A stretch of DNA of 64,000 bases, taken from assembly GCA_903847975.1 (NCBI GenBank), contig CAINFC010000079.1, forward strand, positions 1 to 64,000, read 5' to 3'. A program made the position numbers and the translations under genes. Positions 25 to 51,036 of this stretch are shown here, piece after piece (position 1 is the stretch's first letter; every line of letters starts with the position of its first letter). The notes beneath the pieces are model-generated. The model made no database searches. It was not told the origin of the DNA and saw only the letters and a list, made by a program, of their open reading frames with translations. This stretch comes from an uncultured Acidobacteriota bacterium. GTDB lineage: Bacteria; Acidobacteriota; UBA6911; CAINFC01.

Positions 25-567
25 ATGAAAGCATTAACCATTTCAGATGCACCCATTATCATCTTAGGTCTCCAAGATGAGATTCGTCGAAACGCCGAAG
101 CCCGGTATGACCACCGCTTGCATGGAGTTCTTCTGGTCGCTCAAGGAATGAATTGCTGTAAAGTGGCTGAGTTTTTAGGGGATTCACCAAGAACAGTGGA
201 ATACTGGGTGCGTCGTTTTGAACAAAAAGGACTTGCCGGCTTACAAGAAGGAGATCGCCCCGGTCGTCCTGGCCGCCTTGACGCGGCGCAAATACAGGAA
301 ACTCAGGCTGCCTTACGAAAGAGGCCATGCGATTTTGAACTGAGCGGGAATTTGTGGGATGGGAAAACATTAGCGGAATATTTCCAGCAAACCTTTGGGA
401 TTACCTTGGGAGCTCGCCAATGTCGTCGGTTTTTTCGCCAATGGGGATTTCGCTTGGTGAAACCTCGACCGCTGATTGCCCGAGCTGACCCCACCCGACA
501 AGCCGCTCATAAAAAAACTCCGGACACTGAATCGCAAACCGGAAGTGGACGTATGGTCATTGGATGA
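25..567 (+). CDS. IS630 transposase, N-terminal (DNA-binding) frame
   Basis: 180 codons. The first part (about residues 15-75) has the AEARYDHRLHGVLLVAQG / VAEFLGDSPRTVEYWVRRF pattern of the IS630 helix-turn-helix DNA-binding region, followed by a second winged-helix-like stretch (LAEYFQQTFGITLGARQ) that normally precedes the catalytic core. The frame runs out shortly after an A7 run at 511-517, where the catalytic frame, displaced by one base, takes over. The product alone would bind ends but lacks the DDE residues. No good ribosome binding site is visible upstream, but only 24 bases are available. Confidence 0.8.
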   Translation: MKALTISDAPIIILGLQDEIRRNAEARYDHRLHGVLLVAQGMNCCKVAEFLGDSPRTVEYWVRRFEQKGLAGLQEGDRPGRPGRLDAAQIQETQAALRKRPCDFELSGNLWDGKTLAEYFQQTFGITLGARQCRRFFRQWGFRLVKPRPLIARADPTRQAAHKKTPDTESQTGSGRMVIG

Positions 568-1069
568 GGTGCATTTTCAACAATATGGTTCCCGTTGTCG
601 AATGTGGGTACCCCCGGAAGACAAAGATCCGGTCCTACGACATCACCCTGGTCGCAAGAGTATTGGGTATTTCGGTGCAGTACGTTTACGGGATGGCATG
701 TTTGTGTATTCACGCGAGCCGCTTCAGTTTAATGGCCAGACATTCTGGGATTTCATGAAAACACTACGCCAACGTAGTCGACGGAAAGGAAAACGGGTTG
801 TGGTTATAACCGACAACGCGAAATACCACCATGCCAAAATGCACAAAGCATGGCGAGACAAGCAACAAGCGGGAGGTTTTAGTCTGGATTATCTTCCGCC
901 ATATAGTCCTGACTTGAATCCTATCGAGCGTGTTTGGAAATTGACGCGTAGGCTTTGCCTTCATGATCAGTATTTCCCGACACTGCAAAGCATATCCGCA
1001 GCTGTGGAAAAGCAATTTGAGCAATGGAAAACGGGTACGGAAACCCTTAGGAAACTCTGTGCCTTGTAG
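476..1069 (+). CDS. IS630 transposase, C-terminal DDE catalytic frame
   Basis: 197 codons, opening at a TTG inside the first frame. The DDE triad is visible: Asp in WSLDEVHF, Asp in ITDNAKYHHAK, and Asp/Glu in LPPYSPDLNPIERVW, all in the order and spacing of IS630 DDE transposases. No internal stop interrupts the catalytic half, so the element may be active if the frames are joined. Joining requires a +1 (or -2) shift, or transcript slippage on A7 (511-517); a simple -1 shift would enter the third, wrong frame. It is therefore either a programmed event or a one-base indel that inactivated a once continuous gene. Confidence 0.85.
   Translation: MPELTPPDKPLIKKLRTLNRKPEVDVWSLDEVHFQQYGSRCRMWVPPEDKDPVLRHHPGRKSIGYFGAVRLRDGMFVYSREPLQFNGQTFWDFMKTLRQRSRRKGKRVVVITDNAKYHHAKMHKAWRDKQQAGGFSLDYLPPYSPDLNPIERVWKLTRRLCLHDQYFPTLQSISAAVEKQFEQWKTGTETLRKLCAL
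511..517 (+). other. A7 run joining the two transposase frames
   Basis: Seven consecutive A lie where the upstream frame reads His-Lys-Lys-Thr and the catalytic frame reads Ile-Lys-Lys-Leu. Removing one A, or adding two, makes one continuous transposase. Homopolymer A runs are known sites of transcriptional slippage or frameshifting in insertion sequences; that this one is used is inference. Confidence 0.5.
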
Positions 1070-1088
1070 TTATCATTCGCAATTATAT

Positions 1089-4000
1089 ATGTCCGCGCGT
1101 ATAAAGAGCACATATACTCTATCGGCCGGCCGGGGAGGTCCGGAGCGAATCCGGCTGCGCTACAACGTTCCCACCCGGGTGGACGAATCGGGGAACCTGC
1201 TGCTGTCCCTTCCCTGTGGGGAGTTGCGCGAAGAACCACCCATCGCCTGGCAGACCATTCAAAACAGGAAAATTCCGGTAGCCATCCGCTTTGCATCGGC
1301 GGGAAAGAATACCGTGGGTTTCGTGGTAAACGAATACAATCCGCAATTTGACCTGATCATCGACCCCATTTTGAAATGGAATACTTATGTAGGAGGCGAA
1401 AGCCGCGACGTGATCAATGCGATCGCCGTGGATCCGGCAGACGGTTCCATTTACGTGGTTGGATCGAGCCTGGCGACCTGGGGCACGCCGGTCCGCGCCC
1501 ACAATACCAGTGGCCTAACCAACAACGACGCTTTTGCCGCCCGCTTTAGTCCCACCACCGGGGGTCTGGTCTGGAACACTTTTCTGGGAGGTTCCGGAGC
1601 CGATACCGGTTTTGGCGTGCTGCTCGACAGCCAGGACAATCTTTATGTCGCCGGCAACAGCGCCGCCACCTGGGGCACGCCGGTTACGCATCATGCCGGC
1701 GGGGACGACATTTTTCTGGCCAAGCTCAACTCCAGCGGCAGTTTGGTCTGGAACACCTTCCAGGGATACATCTATGACGACAACTATACGGCCATGGAAT
1801 TCGGGTTCCAATCCAAGGGAGTTGTCGTCGCCGGTTTCATTGCCGCAGCTACCGGCGGTGCCACCGCGGTGGGCCTGTTCAACACCACGGGAGCCCTTCA
1901 CTGGAGCCACATTCTGACAAGCGGTACCTCCTCGACCAACACGGACCTGACGACCGATTCCCTGGGGTCTATTTACCTGACCGGCTACAGCAGCGCCAGT
2001 TGGGGCAGCCCCTTGAATGCCTTCGCCGGTGGCCGGGACGCCTATGTCGCTAAAATGGACCGTTACGGTACCATACAGTGGAACACTTTCCTGGGAGGCA
2101 GCGGGAACGATTACGGCCGAGCCATCACCCTGGACGGATCCAATACCCCCTACCTGGTAGGAGACAGCGATGCCTCCTGGGGTTTGAAACCGCTCAATGC
2201 CTACAGCGGCGGCAGCGACGGCTTTGTGGTCAAGCTGACCACGGCCGGCGCACGCAGCTGGCATACCTTCCTGGGAGGCATCACCTCCACGGACACGGGG
2301 AAAGACATCATCCTCGACAGCGAAAAAAATATCTATATCCTGGGCGAGAGTTCCGCCACCTGGGGCAGTCCGGTGAATGCCTTCGGTGGCGGCAGCACCG
2401 ATTTCCTGCTGGCCAAATTCACCGCTGCCGGAACAAGGACCTGGCATTCTTTCTACGGTGGGGCTGGCAACGAAACCGGCAAAGCGATCGGGCTTCATTT
2501 TCCTGACCTTTTTTTTGCCGGGTACGGCACGACGCCTCAATGGGGAAGCCCGGTCACCGGTTCCTCCGGCTCAGACGGCCTGCTGGCAAGAATCAATCTG
2601 GGACCCACCATCACCGGCTACTATCCCCCGACTAAAACAGCCGGGGCGGCTGCTTTTGACATTCGGATCGATGGAACCGACTTTACTCCCTCCTCGCAGG
2701 TTCAATGGAACCAAAACCCGCTGACCATTACGACACGGAACGGCGATTGGCAAATTCGTGCAATGGTGCCGGCAGAGTTCATGGCCAGCGGGTTGCTGGC
2801 CAACCTGCGCGTCCACCGCCCCATCCAGGATTGGGACAACAGCTATTCCGCCCCGGTCTTCTTCCCGGTAAATAATCAGCTGCCAACCATCCAAAAAGTG
2901 GAGCCGCCCTACACCGTGGCCGGACAGGCAGAATTCACGGTCACGATTACCGGTACGAATTTTGTTCCTGGAACCATCTGCTCTCCCTCCAATCCCAGCT
3001 CCAATTGCTCCATGGTTCGGTGGATGGGATCCGTCAATCTGGAAACGACGTGGTTAAGCAAAACCAGTCTTCAGGCCAAGTTTAAGAGCACGGATCTCGC
3101 CTCCTACCAATCCAACGCCCTTACCGTTTACAATCCTCCGCCGACCGATCCTGCCGGCGGATTGACTTCCTTTCCCTTTTACTTTGTCATTTTTAATCCG
3201 GCGCCCAGCCTCACCAGCCTTTCCCCGGTCTCTGCCCTTGTAGGAACGCCGGGGTTGGATCTGACGATCAACGGAACCGGATTTTACAGCGGAGCCACCG
3301 TCAAATGGAATACGCAAACTTATTCTACGACCTTTGTTTCCTCCTCCCAGATTCGAGCGACTATTCCGGCTTCGCAGTTCGAAAGTCCCGGAACCGCTAC
3401 CGTTAAAGTGGCCAACCCGGACTCCAACAACTCGGAGTCAAATGCCCTTTCGTTTTCGATCAACAATCCGGAGCCGACAATTACCGGCCTCGATCCGGCC
3501 TTCAAAGCGGCGGGGGATGCGGGATTCAAGCTGACCATCCAGGGCACCGGCTTTGTCCGCGGGGCCGAGGTCATATGGAGGTTCGAATCCACCGAATCCA
3601 CCCGTACTCCCACCTATGGTTCCTCGTCTCGATTGACTATCGATGTATTTTCCTCCGACCTGCTCAGCCCGGGCAATCCAACGGTCCAGGTAGTGAACCC
3701 TACACCCGGGGGAGGCCCCTCCAATACCTTCGAGTTCGCCATCGGAAACCCGATCGCCGTCATTTCCAGCCTGGAGCCGGCTTCAACCAGTAAAGGAGGC
3801 CCCGCTTTTTCCCTCCTTCTCACCGGAACCTATTTCCTGAGCGGATCCATCGTCCGTTGGAACGGGTCGGATCGCTCCACCACTTATATATCGCCAACCA
3901 GGCTGTCGGCGGAGATTTCCGCCACGGACATCGCTTCTGCGGTAGACATCCCAATCATGGTGTGGAATCCCGGCCCGGGCGGCGGCTCTTCGCTGGCCAG

Positions 4001-6149
4001 GACTTTTTCAGTCACCAACCCGGCTCCGGCGATTTCCGAACTGAGCCCCTCCTTTCTTGAAGCCGGAGGGCCAAAACTGAATCTGGTTGTCAAAGGAACC
4101 GACCTGCTTTCGAATTCCGTGGTGAGATGGAACGGATCCGACCGGAATACTACTTTTATTTCCACGACACAGCTTTCTGCGGAAATCCTCGCCTCGGACA
4201 TCGCCGGACCCGGTTCCGCCAACGTCCAGGCGTTCAATCCCACACCGGGAGGAGGGGTGTCCAACAGCCTGGCCATCAATATTTACAATCCGACCCCGAA
4301 AATCACCGGCTTGAACCCGACCACGGCGGTCGCCGGCGGATCTCCTCTCAGTCTGACGGTGAACGGCAGCGGATTTGTGACCGGCTCGGTAGTCCATTGG
4401 AATGGAAGCCTTCGACCGACGAGCTATGTTTCCGGAACGCAGCTGACGGCCGCCATTACCGCCGTGGATATCGGCACACCGGGGACGGCCTCGATTTCCG
4501 TGGTCAATCAGGCCCCCGGCGGAGGCACTTCCAACGAAATGTCCTTGCCAATCGTTAATCCGGTTCCGATCCTCAGCTCCCTCGGTCCCAACTCGGTCAT
4601 GGCCAGGGGGGCAAGCTTTACTTTAACGGTCCAGGGCTCCCTTTTTGTTCCTGGAGCCCAAGTGAATTGGAATGGAGCCGCCCGCGAAACAATCTTTGTT
4701 TCCGCCTCGCAGTTGACCGCATCGATTCTGGGCACGGACATCCGCACCCCGGGCACCGCGGCGATTACGGTGGTTAACCCCACCCCCGGCGGGGGCTCCT
4801 CCGGACCCGTCGATTTTACCATCGGCTCCGTCGGGAAAAAGGCCTGGACCATGATGCTCTATCTGGCCGGGGACAACAATCTGAGCCGGGCTCTATCTAT
4901 GGCGGTTGCCCGTCTGGAAGAACAGTCGATTCAGCCCGACGTAAACGTGGTTGTTCAGATCGACGGCGATAAAAGCATGGATACCCGCCGTTTTCTGGTG
5001 CAAAAAAACGGAGTCTATACTGAAAACTACAACCACTGGGTCAAAGGCGAATTCGATATGGGGGCCGAATCCGTATTGTACCAGTTTGTCGACTGGGCGA
5101 TCCAGGAATATCCCGCGGATCATTACTACCTGGCCATCACCGACCACGGCCGGGGCACTCAGGGGATCGCCTGGGACCAGACCAGCAACAACACTTACCT
5201 GAAGCCCGGCAATATACGCAACGCTCTGGCAACTCTTTTCAGCAGCAGCCAGGAGAAAATCGATGTGCTCCACCTGGACGCCTGCCTGATGGGCATGTTC
5301 GAATTGGCCTATGAATTCCGACAATACGCCAACTACCTGGTCGCCTCGGAAAACCTGGGTTGGTCGGTTTTCGCCTACGATCTTTACGCTCCTTCCGGAA
5401 GCAGGACGGAAAAAGCCGTCGCCTCCCAGGAAAGAGTGCCTTTAACGTACGCTCAGGTTTTTCCATTAGTCAGCCGGGCCACGGCCCCCCGGGACCTGGC
5501 GGTTTCCATCGTCGAAGGCTACTTCAACCACCCTGCGCTGCGCGGCCATCCCAGAACAATTTCAGCGGTCGATTTAAACTGGGCCCAGGATGTTCGCCTG
5601 GCCCTCGACGCCTGGGCCGACGCTATGAAGAACAACCTGGAAACACGCCAGGGGCAAATCACCTTCAAGGATAAAATCTATGACCGCCGGCTGATCACTC
5701 AGAAGTTCGACTCCCGTAACTACGGCACGCTGGACGTCAACGACGAATACGTGGATTTATACGATCTGGCCGACCAGATCGTCAAGGTGACCGACATAGA
5801 GAGCGTCCGGACTGCAGGGCAGGCGCTAATGGACGCCATTTTGCCCATGGTCATTGCGGAGCACCACGAGAGCGGGTATTACAACTGGCAGGGGGAAACT
5901 CCCGGCTACTGGAATCTCAATGAAGCCCATGGGATGTCCCTCTATTTCCCGCCGCGGTCGGGAACCAACACCTACACCAATTACGTAGGCGACCAGATTT
6001 TTCAGATGACCATCGACGGGAATTGGGATGATTTTCTCAGGGCTTACTTCGGGGCTATGAATCTGCCGGTTGATACTGCCGTGGATCCGACGCAGCCGCC
6101 GTTGCTGGTCCCACTGTTCGAAGTTTACCTGCCACTGATCCTGAAATGA
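1089..6149 (+). CDS. Secreted SBBP-propeller / IPT-TIG / clostripain-like (C11) protein, 5' end cut off by the IS
   Basis: About 1686 residues from the ATG at 1089; the frame stays open back to 963, inside the IS. From about 1125 the protein resembles the C-terminal part of the N-terminal domain that precedes SBBP repeats (IRLRYN ... FDLIIDPILKWNTYVGG). Seven SBBP-type repeats with FLGGSGxDxG...LYVAG signatures follow (about 1380-2590), then eight IPT/TIG Ig-like domains, most ending GGGxSN (about 2600-4820). A peptidase C11 domain comes next: KKAWTMMLYLAGDNN, catalytic His in DHGRG (codon 5145) and Cys in DACLMG (codon 5283). The last residues are VYLPLILK. The secretion signal and roughly the first 100+ residues are missing, so although the protease dyad is intact the protein is probably not exported. 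Role before disruption: cell-surface or extracellular cysteine protease with a long adhesin-like stalk. Confidence 0.8.
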   Translation: MSARIKSTYTLSAGRGGPERIRLRYNVPTRVDESGNLLLSLPCGELREEPPIAWQTIQNRKIPVAIRFASAGKNTVGFVVNEYNPQFDLIIDPILKWNTYVGGESRDVINAIAVDPADGSIYVVGSSLATWGTPVRAHNTSGLTNNDAFAARFSPTTGGLVWNTFLGGSGADTGFGVLLDSQDNLYVAGNSAATWGTPVTHHAGGDDIFLAKLNSSGSLVWNTFQGYIYDDNYTAMEFGFQSKGVVVAGFIAAATGGATAVGLFNTTGALHWSHILTSGTSSTNTDLTTDSLGSIYLTGYSSASWGSPLNAFAGGRDAYVAKMDRYGTIQWNTFLGGSGNDYGRAITLDGSNTPYLVGDSDASWGLKPLNAYSGGSDGFVVKLTTAGARSWHTFLGGITSTDTGKDIILDSEKNIYILGESSATWGSPVNAFGGGSTDFLLAKFTAAGTRTWHSFYGGAGNETGKAIGLHFPDLFFAGYGTTPQWGSPVTGSSGSDGLLARINLGPTITGYYPPTKTAGAAAFDIRIDGTDFTPSSQVQWNQNPLTITTRNGDWQIRAMVPAEFMASGLLANLRVHRPIQDWDNSYSAPVFFPVNNQLPTIQKVEPPYTVAGQAEFTVTITGTNFVPGTICSPSNPSSNCSMVRWMGSVNLETTWLSKTSLQAKFKSTDLASYQSNALTVYNPPPTDPAGGLTSFPFYFVIFNPAPSLTSLSPVSALVGTPGLDLTINGTGFYSGATVKWNTQTYSTTFVSSSQIRATIPASQFESPGTATVKVANPDSNNSESNALSFSINNPEPTITGLDPAFKAAGDAGFKLTIQGTGFVRGAEVIWRFESTESTRTPTYGSSSRLTIDVFSSDLLSPGNPTVQVVNPTPGGGPSNTFEFAIGNPIAVISSLEPASTSKGGPAFSLLLTGTYFLSGSIVRWNGSDRSTTYISPTRLSAEISATDIASAVDIPIMVWNPGPGGGSSLARTFSVTNPAPAISELSPSFLEAGGPKLNLVVKGTDLLSNSVVRWNGSDRNTTFISTTQLSAEILASDIAGPGSANVQAFNPTPGGGVSNSLAINIYNPTPKITGLNPTTAVAGGSPLSLTVNGSGFVTGSVVHWNGSLRPTSYVSGTQLTAAITAVDIGTPGTASISVVNQAPGGGTSNEMSLPIVNPVPILSSLGPNSVMARGASFTLTVQGSLFVPGAQVNWNGAARETIFVSASQLTASILGTDIRTPGTAAITVVNPTPGGGSSGPVDFTIGSVGKKAWTMMLYLAGDNNLSRALSMAVARLEEQSIQPDVNVVVQIDGDKSMDTRRFLVQKNGVYTENYNHWVKGEFDMGAESVLYQFVDWAIQEYPADHYYLAITDHGRGTQGIAWDQTSNNTYLKPGNIRNALATLFSSSQEKIDVLHLDACLMGMFELAYEFRQYANYLVASENLGWSVFAYDLYAPSGSRTEKAVASQERVPLTYAQVFPLVSRATAPRDLAVSIVEGYFNHPALRGHPRTISAVDLNWAQDVRLALDAWADAMKNNLETRQGQITFKDKIYDRRLITQKFDSRNYGTLDVNDEYVDLYDLADQIVKVTDIESVRTAGQALMDAILPMVIAEHHESGYYNWQGETPGYWNLNEAHGMSLYFPPRSGTNTYTNYVGDQIFQMTIDGNWDDFLRAYFGAMNLPVDTAVDPTQPPLLVPLFEVYLPLILK

Positions 6150-18356: not shown

Positions 18357-21300
18357 CTAAGGTCTGAGCACCAGCGGCAGGAAGAGATTGTTGCTGTCGA
18401 GCATGCCGGTAGTGACCTTGGTGCCGGTTATCCCGGAAACATTGCCGACCGCATCCCGGACGCCGACATAGATTTGATCGCCGGGCTTGGCGGAAACCGT
18501 GGCGGTATAGGAATAGGGCTGCCATGGGGCACCGGCCAGGTCGGGGCTGGTGCCGATTTTCATGTCCGCCACACCGCTCCCCCCGAGCTGGTCTTCCGCC
18601 AAAATCCGAAGGGTGACCGTCGAGGAAGCCGATTCCGCAGCTTCGGCTCTCCGGGAGGAGCCGGCGGCCACCGAAACGGTCGGGGGCAGCGGATCGTAGA
18701 CGATATCGTCGCTCAGATTCAATCCGTAGCACATCGGCTGCCCGCTGCTGTCGAACATGCGCATATATACCAGCAGGGTCACGATGCGGGTGCCCAGGTC
18801 CGAAAGGGTCCAGGAGAAGGCGGACTGGTAGGGAATCACTTTGGCGTGAGCGAATCCGGCGTCGTTGCTGACCATCATCTCTTTCACTCCGACCGTGCTG
18901 GAAAAGATCTGCACCTGCCGCTGGCCGGTGTAGGGCGCTCCGTTGTTGATGGTGATCGTACAGGGGAGGAGATTCAATACTCCGATCACAAAAGGATAGA
19001 GCGAGGACAGGGAATCGACTTTGCCGGTGATGATGTTCGCGCCGGTGTCGAGCGCCGTGGTGACATCCTTCCACTTGCCGTTTTCGTAGTGCAAGAGACG
19101 CAGGGAGGCCTCGGATACTCCGGCCGCGGCAACATCCGCTTCGCTGTAGGGGAACTGCACGAGGGCAGAGGAAAACAATGCCTGGGCCGAGGAGGAAGGG
19201 CTGCCTCCGGTAGCGGCGGCGCTGAGCGCATAGCTGGTCCGAAGCAGGGTGAAATCCTCCGGCGTCGACCCGGGTGGCACGATGGAAACGACAGCCGAAA
19301 GCGAGCCGTCGGCCCACAGGTCGTTGAAGATCACCTGCACGGTCCCGGCGTGCGTGCTCAAAGGGACCGTCACCGGGGGGCGAGGCGGCTTGGGGGAAGC
19401 GAATGCCACGGTAACCGGCGGGGCGGACAAGTCGTTCTCGACCACCGTAAGGGTTGCCGAAGCCGGAGAACCGGGAAAGGCGTTGACCGGGTTGCTCAAA
19501 GCGAGGAGTACGGTTTCGCTGAACTCCATGAGCGTAGTGTCGTCCAGGACGGCAACCTGGAATGTCTTGCCGGTTTCGCCGGGTGAAAAATTCAAGGTGC
19601 CGGCGGCGGACTGGTAGTCGCTTCCCGCCGTCGCCGTTCCGTTGGACGTGCTGTACCCGACGGTGATGGTCTGCGGGGAAGGAGCGCTCAGGCTTACGGT
19701 GATGGGGATGCTGCCATCCGCTTCGCCCGCGCTGAAGGCGGACGAGCTGAACTGCACGGCAGGCCCGTCGTTGTCCAGAATGGTCAGAGAGGCCGTCGGG
19801 GGCGAGCCCGGATCGGCGCGGGTCGGGCCGCTCAAGGTCAGAGAGAGCGATTCGTCCAGCTCATCCGCCGAGTCGTCGATGATCGAAACGGAAAAGGTTT
19901 TGGCGGTTTCCCCGGGGCTGAAAGTCAACGTGCCGGAGGAAGCGGCAAAATCGCTGCCGGCCAGGGCCGTCCCGTTGGAAGAGCTATAATCGACGGTAAC
20001 GATCTGCACCGAAGGATAGCTCAGCTGCACGGTAAGAGAAGCGCTTCCGGCCGATTCCGGAACACTGTAGGAGGATGGATGGAAAAAAACCTGCGGCCCG
20101 TCGTTGTCCAGGATGGTCAGCAGGGCGGCTGCAGGAGAACCCAGCGCCGCGGTAGCGGATACGCTGCTCAAAGTGAGCTGGACGGTTTCATCGGTCTCGT
20201 CGAGGCCATCATCGACGAGGCCGACCGCAAACGACCTGGTGGTATCACCCGGGATGAAGGTCAGCGTGCCGGAAGTTGCGGCATAGTCGGCTTCCGCGAC
20301 CGCCGTCCCGTTGCCGGTCGCATATTGGACGGTAATCGTCTGCGGGGAAGCGGCCGTCAGATCCACATAAATGACCGCGCTGCCGGCACCTTCGCCCGCG
20401 CTGAAGCCGGAAGACCGGAACCGCACCGCCGGCCCGTCGTTGTCGGTGATGGTCAGGACCGCTGCGGAGGGCGCTCCCAGCGTAGCGTTTCCCGGGCTGC
20501 TTAAAGTAAGGTTTACGGTTTCGTCGGTCTCGTCCAGCGAATCGTCGGCGATCGAAACGGGGAAGGTCTTGCTGGTTTCGCCCGCGGCAAAGGTCAGCGT
20601 GCCGGATGTGGCCGTATAATCGCTCCCGGCGGCGGCCGTGCCGTTTGCGGTGGCGTATTGCACGGTTACCGGCAGGTTGTAGGCTTTGCTTAATTGGACG
20701 GTCATGGTAACCGAGCCGGCCGCTTCGCCGGCGGAGGTGGCCGCCTGGCTGAACGTAACCTCCGGCTTGCCGAGGGCTGCGGTTACCTCGCTGGAAAACC
20801 AGGACTCATTGCCGTCGGTCCAGTCGGCGGTGCCGTCTGCGGAAGAGTCGATGGCGGTCACCGCAATGTACCACCCGGTAGATGCCAGTCCGCTTAAGGT
20901 GTGGCCGGTCACATGGCCGACCGTTACGGAATTGGCGTACGGGTAGCCGGAATCCGTGTCGTAATAGATTTTATATCCGGCGACATCCGACTCCGGGTTG
21001 GCCGTCCAGGCGAGGACTACGTCATTGCCGCTGACTGTCGCCTGAACACCGATCGGTCGGGATATTGGGGCAGCTGAGGAGGGGGAGTTAAGGAAGCCGG
21101 ATGAGTCCACGGCTCCATAGCTGATGTCGTCGAAATAATCGAATATTTTACTTGCAATCTGAGTTAGGTTCGTTGTGTCCCAGAAATTGCTTTTTGCCGC
21201 AATCGGTTTAGCTGTACGATTTTCGATGGTGTAGGTGCTGTTCCGTAAAAAGTTGTTGTTGGTCTCAATCGATACCGTATTGGCTCCCGTCAAACGGATC

Positions 21301-22394
21301 GCCGTAGCAAAATCCACAAAGGTCGAATTGGAAACGACTAAGCTGCCCATTGAACAATTATAGATACAACCAGAAAACTGAACACCCACACCAGTGCCTT
21401 GACCAATGAAACTGGAAGCGGTGATGGATCCGCTACCAAAAGACAGACCCGGAGTAGAATTAAACGAAAAAATACTGTTGTTTATTTGCATGATGGCCGA
21501 AGGTAGATTTACCGACGAATTGATTAGCTTCGAGTAGGAAAATTTGACTGGTCCGCCCTCCCTTCCTTCCACTAGGGAATCGAATAAAGTGCTGTTCCGG
21601 ATGTCGAAATTGGCACCGCAGCAACCAAGCTGGAATTGGGTTTTGCTCGCGGTCGTGTTGTCGAGGATTATGCCGTAGTTGTAGGAGTCGGATAGAACGG
21701 TGGAGCTGGAAATGTTGGAATTCCTGATTTCTATCGGTTCGCTGTTCGGGTATTGGCCTGTGACGTTGGCGGAAGTGATGGTGGATCCGTCCAATATTAG
21801 CTTGGCTGAGGTTCCATAGCCTCCGGTGCGGACTTCAGCATTGCTGACCTGCAGTTGGGAAACAGTCAAAGTTCCCGTGCAGGCATTGCCCGGATTGAAT
21901 TCCCCACCGCCGCTGCCCACCATGATCGCTCTTAAGGCATCTGCCATAACGATATGGCTGATTTGGGAATCGGAGAGATTGGTGCCTTCAAATTTCAGCA
22001 TGGTAGCTCCGGACGAGGTCGTCGGTGTGGACGAAACAAAACGAATGGGAGCCATGCTCGTTCCGTTGGCGATAAGCGTACCTTTGATAAGAATCTGATA
22101 CGCTCCGGTAAAGCGAATCACAACCCCAGCCTCAATCGTCAGAGTTGCTCCCGAGGCGACTTGAACGCTGCCTACCACATCATAAGGGCTGTTGGCCAGC
22201 GTCCAGGTGACGTTGCTGAGATAATTGCCGCTGACATCTGTAGCTGCCGCGGAGCAGGGAAAAAATAAGATCGGGAAAGCAATCAACAGTATGGATCGAA
22301 TCCATGCAGAAAGGCGATGAGAAACACCTCTACGCCGCGTGGAAGAGTATTTCAAAACTAAAATCCTGGCTCGAATGACTTTAAGAACTTTCAT
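18357..22394 (-). CDS. Secreted beta-helix / FN3 / Calx-beta surface protein
   Basis: 1345 residues. A basic, hydrophobic N-terminus (AWIRSILLIAFPILFFPCSA) is the signal peptide. Residues about 55-420 form a right-handed beta-helix-like region (VQVASGATLTIEAGVVIRF, repeated NSTL/NSTF turns). One fibronectin type III domain follows (VVLAWTANPESDVAGYKIYY), then four Calx-beta domains each ending ITDNDG, ILDNDG or VVENDL, two further beta-rich regions, and the terminal residues FLPLVLRP. It is probably a large exported carbohydrate-binding or adhesin-like protein; no catalytic motif is seen. The gene is mosaic: the signal and beta-helix part (21100-22394) has near 40% GC, while the Calx-beta part is near 65%. 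Divergent from the rhamnosidase gene. Confidence 0.85.
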   Translation of the reverse strand: MKVLKVIRARILVLKYSSTRRRGVSHRLSAWIRSILLIAFPILFFPCSAAATDVSGNYLSNVTWTLANSPYDVVGSVQVASGATLTIEAGVVIRFTGAYQILIKGTLIANGTSMAPIRFVSSTPTTSSGATMLKFEGTNLSDSQISHIVMADALRAIMVGSGGGEFNPGNACTGTLTVSQLQVSNAEVRTGGYGTSAKLILDGSTITSANVTGQYPNSEPIEIRNSNISSSTVLSDSYNYGIILDNTTASKTQFQLGCCGANFDIRNSTLFDSLVEGREGGPVKFSYSKLINSSVNLPSAIMQINNSIFSFNSTPGLSFGSGSITASSFIGQGTGVGVQFSGCIYNCSMGSLVVSNSTFVDFATAIRLTGANTVSIETNNNFLRNSTYTIENRTAKPIAAKSNFWDTTNLTQIASKIFDYFDDISYGAVDSSGFLNSPSSAAPISRPIGVQATVSGNDVVLAWTANPESDVAGYKIYYDTDSGYPYANSVTVGHVTGHTLSGLASTGWYIAVTAIDSSADGTADWTDGNESWFSSEVTAALGKPEVTFSQAATSAGEAAGSVTMTVQLSKAYNLPVTVQYATANGTAAAGSDYTATSGTLTFAAGETSKTFPVSIADDSLDETDETVNLTLSSPGNATLGAPSAAVLTITDNDGPAVRFRSSGFSAGEGAGSAVIYVDLTAASPQTITVQYATGNGTAVAEADYAATSGTLTFIPGDTTRSFAVGLVDDGLDETDETVQLTLSSVSATAALGSPAAALLTILDNDGPQVFFHPSSYSVPESAGSASLTVQLSYPSVQIVTVDYSSSNGTALAGSDFAASSGTLTFSPGETAKTFSVSIIDDSADELDESLSLTLSGPTRADPGSPPTASLTILDNDGPAVQFSSSAFSAGEADGSIPITVSLSAPSPQTITVGYSTSNGTATAGSDYQSAAGTLNFSPGETGKTFQVAVLDDTTLMEFSETVLLALSNPVNAFPGSPASATLTVVENDLSAPPVTVAFASPKPPRPPVTVPLSTHAGTVQVIFNDLWADGSLSAVVSIVPPGSTPEDFTLLRTSYALSAAATGGSPSSSAQALFSSALVQFPYSEADVAAAGVSEASLRLLHYENGKWKDVTTALDTGANIITGKVDSLSSLYPFVIGVLNLLPCTITINNGAPYTGQRQVQIFSSTVGVKEMMVSNDAGFAHAKVIPYQSAFSWTLSDLGTRIVTLLVYMRMFDSSGQPMCYGLNLSDDIVYDPLPPTVSVAAGSSRRAEAAESASSTVTLRILAEDQLGGSGVADMKIGTSPDLAGAPWQPYSYTATVSAKPGDQIYVGVRDAVGNVSGITGTKVTTGMLDSNNLFLPLVLRP

Positions 22395-49683: not shown

Positions 49684-51036
49684 TCAGCGGATTACGGAAG
49701 GAAGATACAATTTATATGCATAGTTGATGTTGCTGGTGGTAACCGCTTCCGCCAAATTGCTGTAGGAGGAGGATCCGGCCTGATTGAAGGCCTGGATGCG
49801 GTACAGGTAGCCCGTGCCGGCAGCAGCCGTGGCATCCACATAGCTGGCGGAGCCGGCCGGAAGGGAGACCAGCAGCTGCCAGCTGACGCTGCTCCGGAGG
49901 GTCCGTTCCAGACGGAACCCGTCCTCATTGGTGCTGGTATCCTGCCAGGTGAGGCTGACTTGCGTGGAGCTTAGGCCGCTGGCGGTAAGATTGGCCGGGG
50001 CGAACGGTGGCTCCGTCAGGTTCAGCTGCCAGCCGATATCGGTGAGAATACCGGAGGTCACCGGCCCGGGCGTGTGAATGGCCTCTCCGAAGCCGATGGA
50101 ATAGGTCATGACGGCATTCTGGGTGCTGTTGAATCCTTCATCCAGATGGGTGTAGCTGGACCCGGAGACCCAGGTCGATGGGGCGTACAGCTTGACCGAC
50201 AGACCTCCGTTGGCTTTCCTGGCGGCTGCTCCCGTAAAGTAGATGCCGCCGCCGGTCAGCACCGAACCGAGAGCGGTGGAGGGAGAAGGGTAGCTGAGAA
50301 GAGAAGTGCCGCTGCCGTCCGCGGTGAAGCGGTCGTAGATGGCGGGATTGGGAAAGCGCAGGGAGCCCGAACCGCTGGAGACCGTGAAGGCCCCGATAAA
50401 GCCCAGGCCGTGGGCGATTTCATGCAGGACAACGGTGACCAGGTCCACCTTGTAGCCCGGGTTGCCGTCCGTGCCCAGGTACCAGTTGCTGTTACCGTTG
50501 ATGTCGACGATCATATCGGGCACTGTGGGAACCAGCCTGGTTCCGGCCAGGTGGTTGGAAAGGGATAATGGGTAATAGGTGTTCTTCACCGGGGCGTTGG
50601 GCGGATCCTGAACCAGGTTGGTGGAAGTCGTCCCCAGGTTGCTCGTACTCAAATCAGTGCGCCAGCAGGCCGCCACTTCAATGGCTACCGTCGAATTGAC
50701 CAGGGATGCCCAGATGTCGCTGGCATACTGGAAGGATGTCATGGCCTCGGCGGGCCAGGCGGCGAGAGTACCGCGGCAGCTGCTGCCGTTGAAACTGATG
50801 TGTACCTGCGCGGCGGGGGCGCGTCGGGCCCGGTAGTCGGTGAAAGAGGGGGGCGGCGGAGTGAAGCTCGGCTTGTATTGGTTGTCCAGCACGACGGGCA
50901 CAAAACCGGACTCCTGGATCAGAAAGGGAGAAGTTGCTTGCGCTTCGGCCATGCAGAAGCCGGTGCCGGCAATACCGGCGAGGCAAAGTGCCAAAATCCT
51001 TCGTTTCATTCCGGGGCGCTGGCTCAGGCTATTCAT
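49684..51036 (-). CDS. Secreted matrixin-like metalloprotease with FN3 and LYLPSVIR tail
   Basis: 450 residues. The signal peptide is RRILALCLAGIAGTGFCMAEA (an internal ATG at 51009 is an alternative start). The metzincin-type zinc site is VTVVLHEIAHGLGFIGAF, HExxHxxGF with a third ligand supplied a few residues later by a nonstandard position. A preceding domain with a twin-residue NSTVAIEVAACW pattern and a large insert (NPAIYDRFTADG) match reprolysin/matrixin-like secreted proteases of environmental bacteria. A fibronectin type III domain follows (ASGLSSTQVSLTWQDTSTNE), and the last residues are KLYLPSVIR, the same kind of tail as in the proteins ending at 6149 and 18357. Extracellular protein degradation is the likely role. 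Confidence 0.82.
   Translation of the reverse strand: MNSLSQRPGMKRRILALCLAGIAGTGFCMAEAQATSPFLIQESGFVPVVLDNQYKPSFTPPPPSFTDYRARRAPAAQVHISFNGSSCRGTLAAWPAEAMTSFQYASDIWASLVNSTVAIEVAACWRTDLSTSNLGTTSTNLVQDPPNAPVKNTYYPLSLSNHLAGTRLVPTVPDMIVDINGNSNWYLGTDGNPGYKVDLVTVVLHEIAHGLGFIGAFTVSSGSGSLRFPNPAIYDRFTADGSGTSLLSYPSPSTALGSVLTGGGIYFTGAAARKANGGLSVKLYAPSTWVSGSSYTHLDEGFNSTQNAVMTYSIGFGEAIHTPGPVTSGILTDIGWQLNLTEPPFAPANLTASGLSSTQVSLTWQDTSTNEDGFRLERTLRSSVSWQLLVSLPAGSASYVDATAAAGTGYLYRIQAFNQAGSSSYSNLAEAVTTSNINYAYKLYLPSVIR

Follow-up and report, generated by a model that had tools for sequence, protein, structure and literature searches.

Why should three otherwise unrelated proteins, encoded within 64,000 nucleotides of an uncultured Acidobacteriota bacterium (contig CAINFC010000079.1; this whole stretch is called the window below), end in the same short tail? 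A first-pass annotation of the sequence had pointed out the likeness and raised a sorting or anchoring signal as its cause. All three tails (VYLPLILK, LFLPLVLRP and LYLPSVIR) were confirmed in open reading frames, each directly before a stop codon. The genes and tails are as follows.

25..1069, + strand: IS630-type transposase split over two overlapping frames (HTH 25-567, DDE_3 476-1069), immediately 5' of the clostripain gene
963..6149, + strand: clostripain-type protein, tailed, exported-type, ending ...FEVYLPLILK
6126..6146, + strand: YLP box YLPLILK, the 7 codons with which the clostripain-type protein ends, before the stop at 6147-6149
18357..22394, - strand: Calx-beta protein, tailed and exported, with signal peptide, ending ...NLFLPLVLRP
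18360..18383, - strand: YLP-box variant FLPLVLRP, longer by one residue, the 8 codons with which the Calx-beta protein ends, before the stop at 18357-18359
49684..51036, - strand: matrixin-like metalloprotease (NF038122-like), tailed and exported, ending ...YKLYLPSVIR
49687..49707, - strand: YLP box YLPSVIR, the 7 codons with which the matrixin-like protease ends, before the stop at 49684-49686

Three tailed genes and a named motif

The clostripain-type protein comprises a partial DUF7948, an SBBP propeller, CoaZ/TIG repeats and a clostripain (Peptidase C11) domain; the C11 match stops at residue 1692 of 1728 and the tail starts 29 residues later. The Calx-beta protein combines a beta-helix-like region with four Calx-beta domains, the repeats lying further inside and no Pfam domain being matched near the C-terminus. 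The matrixin-like protease has 450 residues; its C-terminal fn3 match stops at residue 428, about 14 residues short of the tail, and an AlphaFold2 model of this protein, computed with no relatives in the input, had a pLDDT of 27, too low to be of use. The view that the three proteins have no final domain in common was thereby borne out (C11 in the first, no Pfam match close to the end of the second, and fn3 in the third), and the tail is not the last strand of one shared domain, since the domains before it differ. The carriers had also been described as signal-peptide-bearing or 5'-truncated, which holds as well. The clostripain gene lacks the start of DUF7948 (the profile is matched only from position 124, the first 123 positions being missing) and lies directly behind the IS630-type transposase, whose insertion is the probable cause of the truncation. 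Two tailed paralogues stand in tandem on contig C21 of the same genome (L048).

The first-pass annotation overlooked that models of this motif exist. Two tiny NCBIfam models, NF050076 (sort_motif_YLP) and NF053834 (ultrashort_CTERM), both bear the name "YLP-box putative sorting motif". YLPSVIR scored 15.1 bits on NF050076, above the curated cut-off of 15; YLPLILK scored 12.0 bits on NF053834 (cut-off 10) and 13.6 on NF050076; FLPLVLRP was below detection by both models. The ending YLPLVLRP, directly before a stop, is also present in a Chloroflexota genome (L339). When 48 Chloroflexota carriers were scanned with NCBIfam, NF050076 was found in 20 and NF053834 in 6. A literature search found no publication on the YLP box. 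The window tails are thus further members of a motif that has a name and no explanation, and its role as a sorting signal is putative, in NCBIfam wording too.

Recurrence in the genome and taxonomic spread

The 8.13 Mb genome was searched with a degenerate DNA pattern ([FY]-L/F-P-x-h-h, a codon with A or G in the middle, stop), which gave 39 matches versus 18 in the reversed control. Inspection by eye left 36 with a true stop; 30 of these ended in K or R, all of the [FY]LP type, and the remaining 6 look like chance. With the stop shifted by one extra codon the matches fell to 13 versus 9 in the control, so K or R is normally the last residue; the LRP ending of the Calx-beta protein in the window is a rarer variant. 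The protein motif [FY]hPxhh[KR] occurred in 32 copies in 657 sampled ORFs (~238,000 residues in 0.8 Mb), and 28 of these copies were exactly C-terminal, a figure that is not an unbiased count per genome, the regions having been selected around hits. Chance would place 0.12 (from the internal rate) or 0.07 (from composition) copies at the ~7000 termini of the genome. Among 257 ORFs from regions selected regardless of tails there were 0 terminal motifs, with about 1 expected. ORF caller and signal-peptide scorer were home-made, and counts for the whole proteome come from DNA patterns and the regions sampled. By the scorer, which is crude, a signal peptide was present in 22 of the 28 carriers and in 182 of the 629 other ORFs (Fisher p = 1.6e-7); the enrichment in signal-peptide proteins, proposed earlier as a check, was thus obtained.

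A broader motif matched 40 C-termini, at least 35 of which were judged credible, which brings the tail to about forty exported proteins. Variants include WLPLIVR, FLPLIQR and YLPLLAR, as well as tails with one to three extra residues, and the carriers range from 94 to more than 2200 residues. With about 0.1 expected and at least 28 observed, the idea that three C-termini in one window resemble each other by chance, for which only the short length of the motif speaks, was refuted and keeps a negligible probability. Contamination of the genome bin as a source of the tails was likewise rejected: the tail genes lie on more than 25 contigs, have native G+C and GC3 (0.716 versus 0.736, p = 0.09) and adjoin genes for outer-membrane barrels.

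From the tails the consensus h-[YF]-L-P-[LV]-[VIL]-x-[KR] was derived. In an alignment of 29 carriers of the genome with 48 from Chloroflexota only L-P was invariant, the L at the second motif position being partly imposed by the search pattern. The final domains of the carriers were diverse (C11, FGE-sulfatase, CBM, F5/8, PPC, Calx-beta, fn3, beta-helix, Golvesin_C, S8, trypsin and ice-binding), and several carriers matched the NCBIfam "choice-of-anchor" domains D, J, Q, X and Z. In the last 60 residues of the 28 carriers the highest hydropathy over 19 residues was 1.94 in one and at most 1.48 in the rest. A profile of the tails searched against the PDB returned no match.

Among the neighbours of the tail genes the only recurring families were common ones (outer-membrane barrel receptors, kinases, oxidoreductases) and one gene pair. 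The receptors adjoining the tail genes are of the OMP_b-brl_4 type, and an ECF sigma factor stands beside a Ser/Thr kinase with WD40-like repeats; this gene content suggests an acidobacterial host with an outer membrane. The gene pair occurs in two copies (L050 10206-11894 and L052 4447-5783) and encodes an exported protein of 337-428 residues and another of 94-95 residues, the latter of the GGGGTSSS...GFWYG type and carrying a YLP box. Small box-bearing proteins of this kind are also present in Chloroflexota (L108, L172, L345).

That similar endings occur in other environmental bacteria, as had been remarked, proved true, and the bacteria in question are Chloroflexota. Scanning 84,980 species for exact matches returned 27 loci, 21 of which belong to Chloroflexota (Anaerolineae, Chloroflexales, Herpetosiphonaceae, Thermoflexia and others). 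Of 251 Chloroflexota genomes 29 matched, with clear carriers and many apparent non-carriers, although the strict pattern undercounts low-G+C genomes. The genome sets drawn from Chloroflexota and from the phylum of the window have no member in common, so the window is not from Chloroflexota. The strict pattern gave 8 matches versus 0 in the control for the genome of the window and at most 1 for every other of the 297 genomes of its phylum; with the broad pattern none of 39 relatives approached the count of this genome, and NF050076 matched 27 times in it versus 0-5 times in 30 relatives. The YLP box is mainly a Chloroflexota trait, and within the phylum of the window only this genome has an excess. 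Outside Chloroflexota, a Planctomycetota MAG (L112, QNBY01000025.1) encodes an exported-type protein ending in HAVYLPLILK; this small genome has 2 broad-pattern matches versus 0 in the control and is either a real carrier or contains a misbinned contig.

A clostripain tree was computed with the tails cut off beforehand and was midpoint-rooted for drawing only. The three tailed clostripains of this genome grouped with Chloroflexota clostripains (support 98/97), whose ends are YLP-like tails or are not in view, while the tail-less clostripains of the window's own class and of Chloroflexota fell on the opposite side. Because the tailed clostripains of the two phyla group together, an ancient transfer is suggested, and the simplest reading is that the clostripain carrier, at least, was acquired horizontally.

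Position of the box and candidate partner enzymes

Boxes away from the C-terminus were sought in this genome and in three Chloroflexota carriers. The highest NF050076 score of the genome (RSVYLPLVTR-ELIQ) belongs to a box that is nevertheless non-terminal and directly follows a signal peptide (L340, contig C138, 896-1690, - strand: MRKLFPVLLGAAILLPSASVETLPVPPSSSPISRSV-YLPLVTR-ELIQ...). A second non-terminal box was found on contig C42 (L320, 1378-2826, + strand: MRTCLAGLVFLVLGGMAGHGETVASLPPTL-YLPLIAR-ETAESP). In Chloroflexota the box stands behind the signal peptide in L322 and L352 and, after a longer linker, in L353; it precedes a glycosyl hydrolase domain in L350 and lies between S8 protease and CarboxypepD_reg domains in L347 and L348, and L329 has two boxes in Pro/Thr-rich linkers of a single protein. 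In L331 the box precedes a trypsin domain. Strict non-terminal boxes numbered about 9 in the three Chloroflexota genomes versus 0.18 expected from composition, and 2 boxes lay within 40 residues of a signal peptide in this genome versus 0.03 expected. Raw counts of the pattern without a stop did not exceed the reversed control in these four genomes, and the argument from non-terminal boxes is one from the identity, quality and context of a few matches, not from raw counts.

That the box can follow a signal peptide or stand between two domains, here and in Chloroflexota alike, is new in the present analysis. Of the proposal of a C-terminal motif of exported proteins, the recurrence at that position stood; an intrinsically C-terminal signal was not supported. 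Since the box is tolerated behind signal peptides, between domains and at the C-terminus alike, these placements speak against a mechanism that reads a free C-terminus and against one in which a transpeptidase takes off the tail.

A co-occurring processing enzyme, which the first-pass annotation had proposed to look for, was not found among the candidates. Exosortase (PF09721) was missing in 15 of 17 Chloroflexota carriers and was rejected as partner on this phylogenetic profile. A half-length exosortase on contig C17, followed by a YLPLVTAGLDG match, was also set aside, the match lying inside a membrane protein and being taken as chance. All carriers have sortase (PF04203), but so do 13 of 14 Chloroflexota non-carriers and, among class relatives, 5 of 10; sortase was rejected because this profile does not separate carriers from non-carriers and because the only sortase found in the genome (L262 9838-11456, C275) adjoins a classical target, a 269-aa protein with a hydrophobic segment and an RRLRRY tail. 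The two appear to form a diderm sortase-target pair that is separate from the YLP box; a similar pairing was seen in class relatives (L274, L275).

Candidate roles and comparison with known systems

With exosortase missing from most Chloroflexota carriers, sortase non-specific and the box position-tolerant, a portable peptide for docking or anchoring, with a putative binding partner in the cell envelope, was favoured over the rival readings, although at somewhat less than even confidence. The box would be a linear peptide that travels on Sec-exported proteins, mostly at the extreme C-terminus and otherwise just behind the cleaved signal peptide or in linkers between domains. After export, a cell-envelope receptor would bind this short hydrophobic peptide without needing a free carboxyl end, and would so keep a range of unrelated enzymes and adhesins at the cell surface. 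K or R at the very C-terminus is preferred more strongly than a position-tolerant tag needs, and terminal and internal boxes might therefore differ in role.

The same preference speaks for a true C-terminal sorting signal, in which a dedicated enzyme or secretion machine would read the free carboxyl end and either cut off the tail or attach it to a surface carrier, much as in sortase, exosortase or T9SS PorU systems. The NCBIfam wording (a putative sorting motif, in one case named ultrashort_CTERM) and the choice-of-anchor domains among the carriers agree with it; the reading is nonetheless less likely given the boxes away from the C-terminus, the lack of a membrane segment before or after the box, and the distribution of exosortase and sortase described above. 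If the box were instead a tag for processing or turnover at which an envelope protease cleaves, boxes at the boundaries of pro-regions and domains, such as those before the trypsin and glycosyl hydrolase domains, would also be explained, and the basic last residue would fit; cutting at a C-terminal box would take off almost nothing and no protease candidate was found, which makes this improbable. Slighter still is the probability of a weak structural element without any role in sorting, for example an extra strand capping a beta-rich domain and spread by domain shuffling. Many carriers are indeed beta-sandwich or beta-propeller proteins, but their last domains belong to unrelated families, C11 and FGE-sulfatase folds among them, the tail begins well beyond the fn3 and C11 matches in the window, boxes lie in Pro/Thr linkers, and the box is restricted to some lineages.

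Taken further, the docking reading would make the box a position-independent peptide rather than a C-terminal sorting signal, and the first general surface-anchoring tag that dispenses with a membrane segment and covalent chemistry, common to Chloroflexota and to one lineage of an outer-membrane phylum that acquired the carriers, and presumably the receptor, horizontally; this wider claim is doubtful. To our knowledge, the retention and sorting of proteins on the surface of Chloroflexota are poorly known. Because a defined tag of 8 residues occurs on dozens of exported proteins, and also in a single genome that stands alone in another phylum, the question can be put to the test: a partner common to the carriers and missing in tail-less relatives should exist, and the mechanism is narrowed by the non-terminal boxes for the reason given above.

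Among known systems, PEP-CTERM/exosortase, GlyGly-CTERM/rhombosortase and MYXO-CTERM/myxosortase offer the same picture of one short tag on dozens of unrelated exported proteins, choice-of-anchor domains included. YLP tails differ in having no transmembrane segment, arginine cluster, Cys or GG. A PEP-CTERM motif would be followed by a transmembrane segment and a basic patch and accompanied by exosortase wherever it occurred, whereas YLP tails end at K or R and, in most Chloroflexota carriers, occur without that enzyme; GG or Cys with a transmembrane segment and basic patch, as in GlyGly-CTERM and MYXO-CTERM, was seen in none of 28 tails of the genome. The earlier exclusion of these systems and of T9SS is upheld, with no match of such models, T9SS sorting-domain models among them, to ten tails (E<=10) and no hydrophobic segment after the tail. 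The invariant Leu-Pro recalls LPXTG/sortase, but T-G and a membrane anchor are missing, the sortase of the genome adjoins a different target, and PF04203, which should be specific to the tag, is equally common in Chloroflexota non-carriers. Like the YLP box, the Type IX secretion signal closes Sec-exported proteins at their extreme C-terminus, often with a basic last residue; it is a folded domain of some 70 residues and the YLP tail has about 8. A further difference is that the YLP box occurs in Chloroflexota, which are generally held to be without an outer membrane. Closest are NF050076 and NF053834, which describe the same sequence in mostly the same place and one or the other of which accepts the matrixin and clostripain tails above its cut-off; as in that family, the box recurs at the C-termini of many unrelated exported proteins in one genome. 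The present tails differ from those models in that FLPLVLRP is undetected and many others of the genome fall below the cut-off, in a host outside Chloroflexota, and in the non-terminal boxes documented here.
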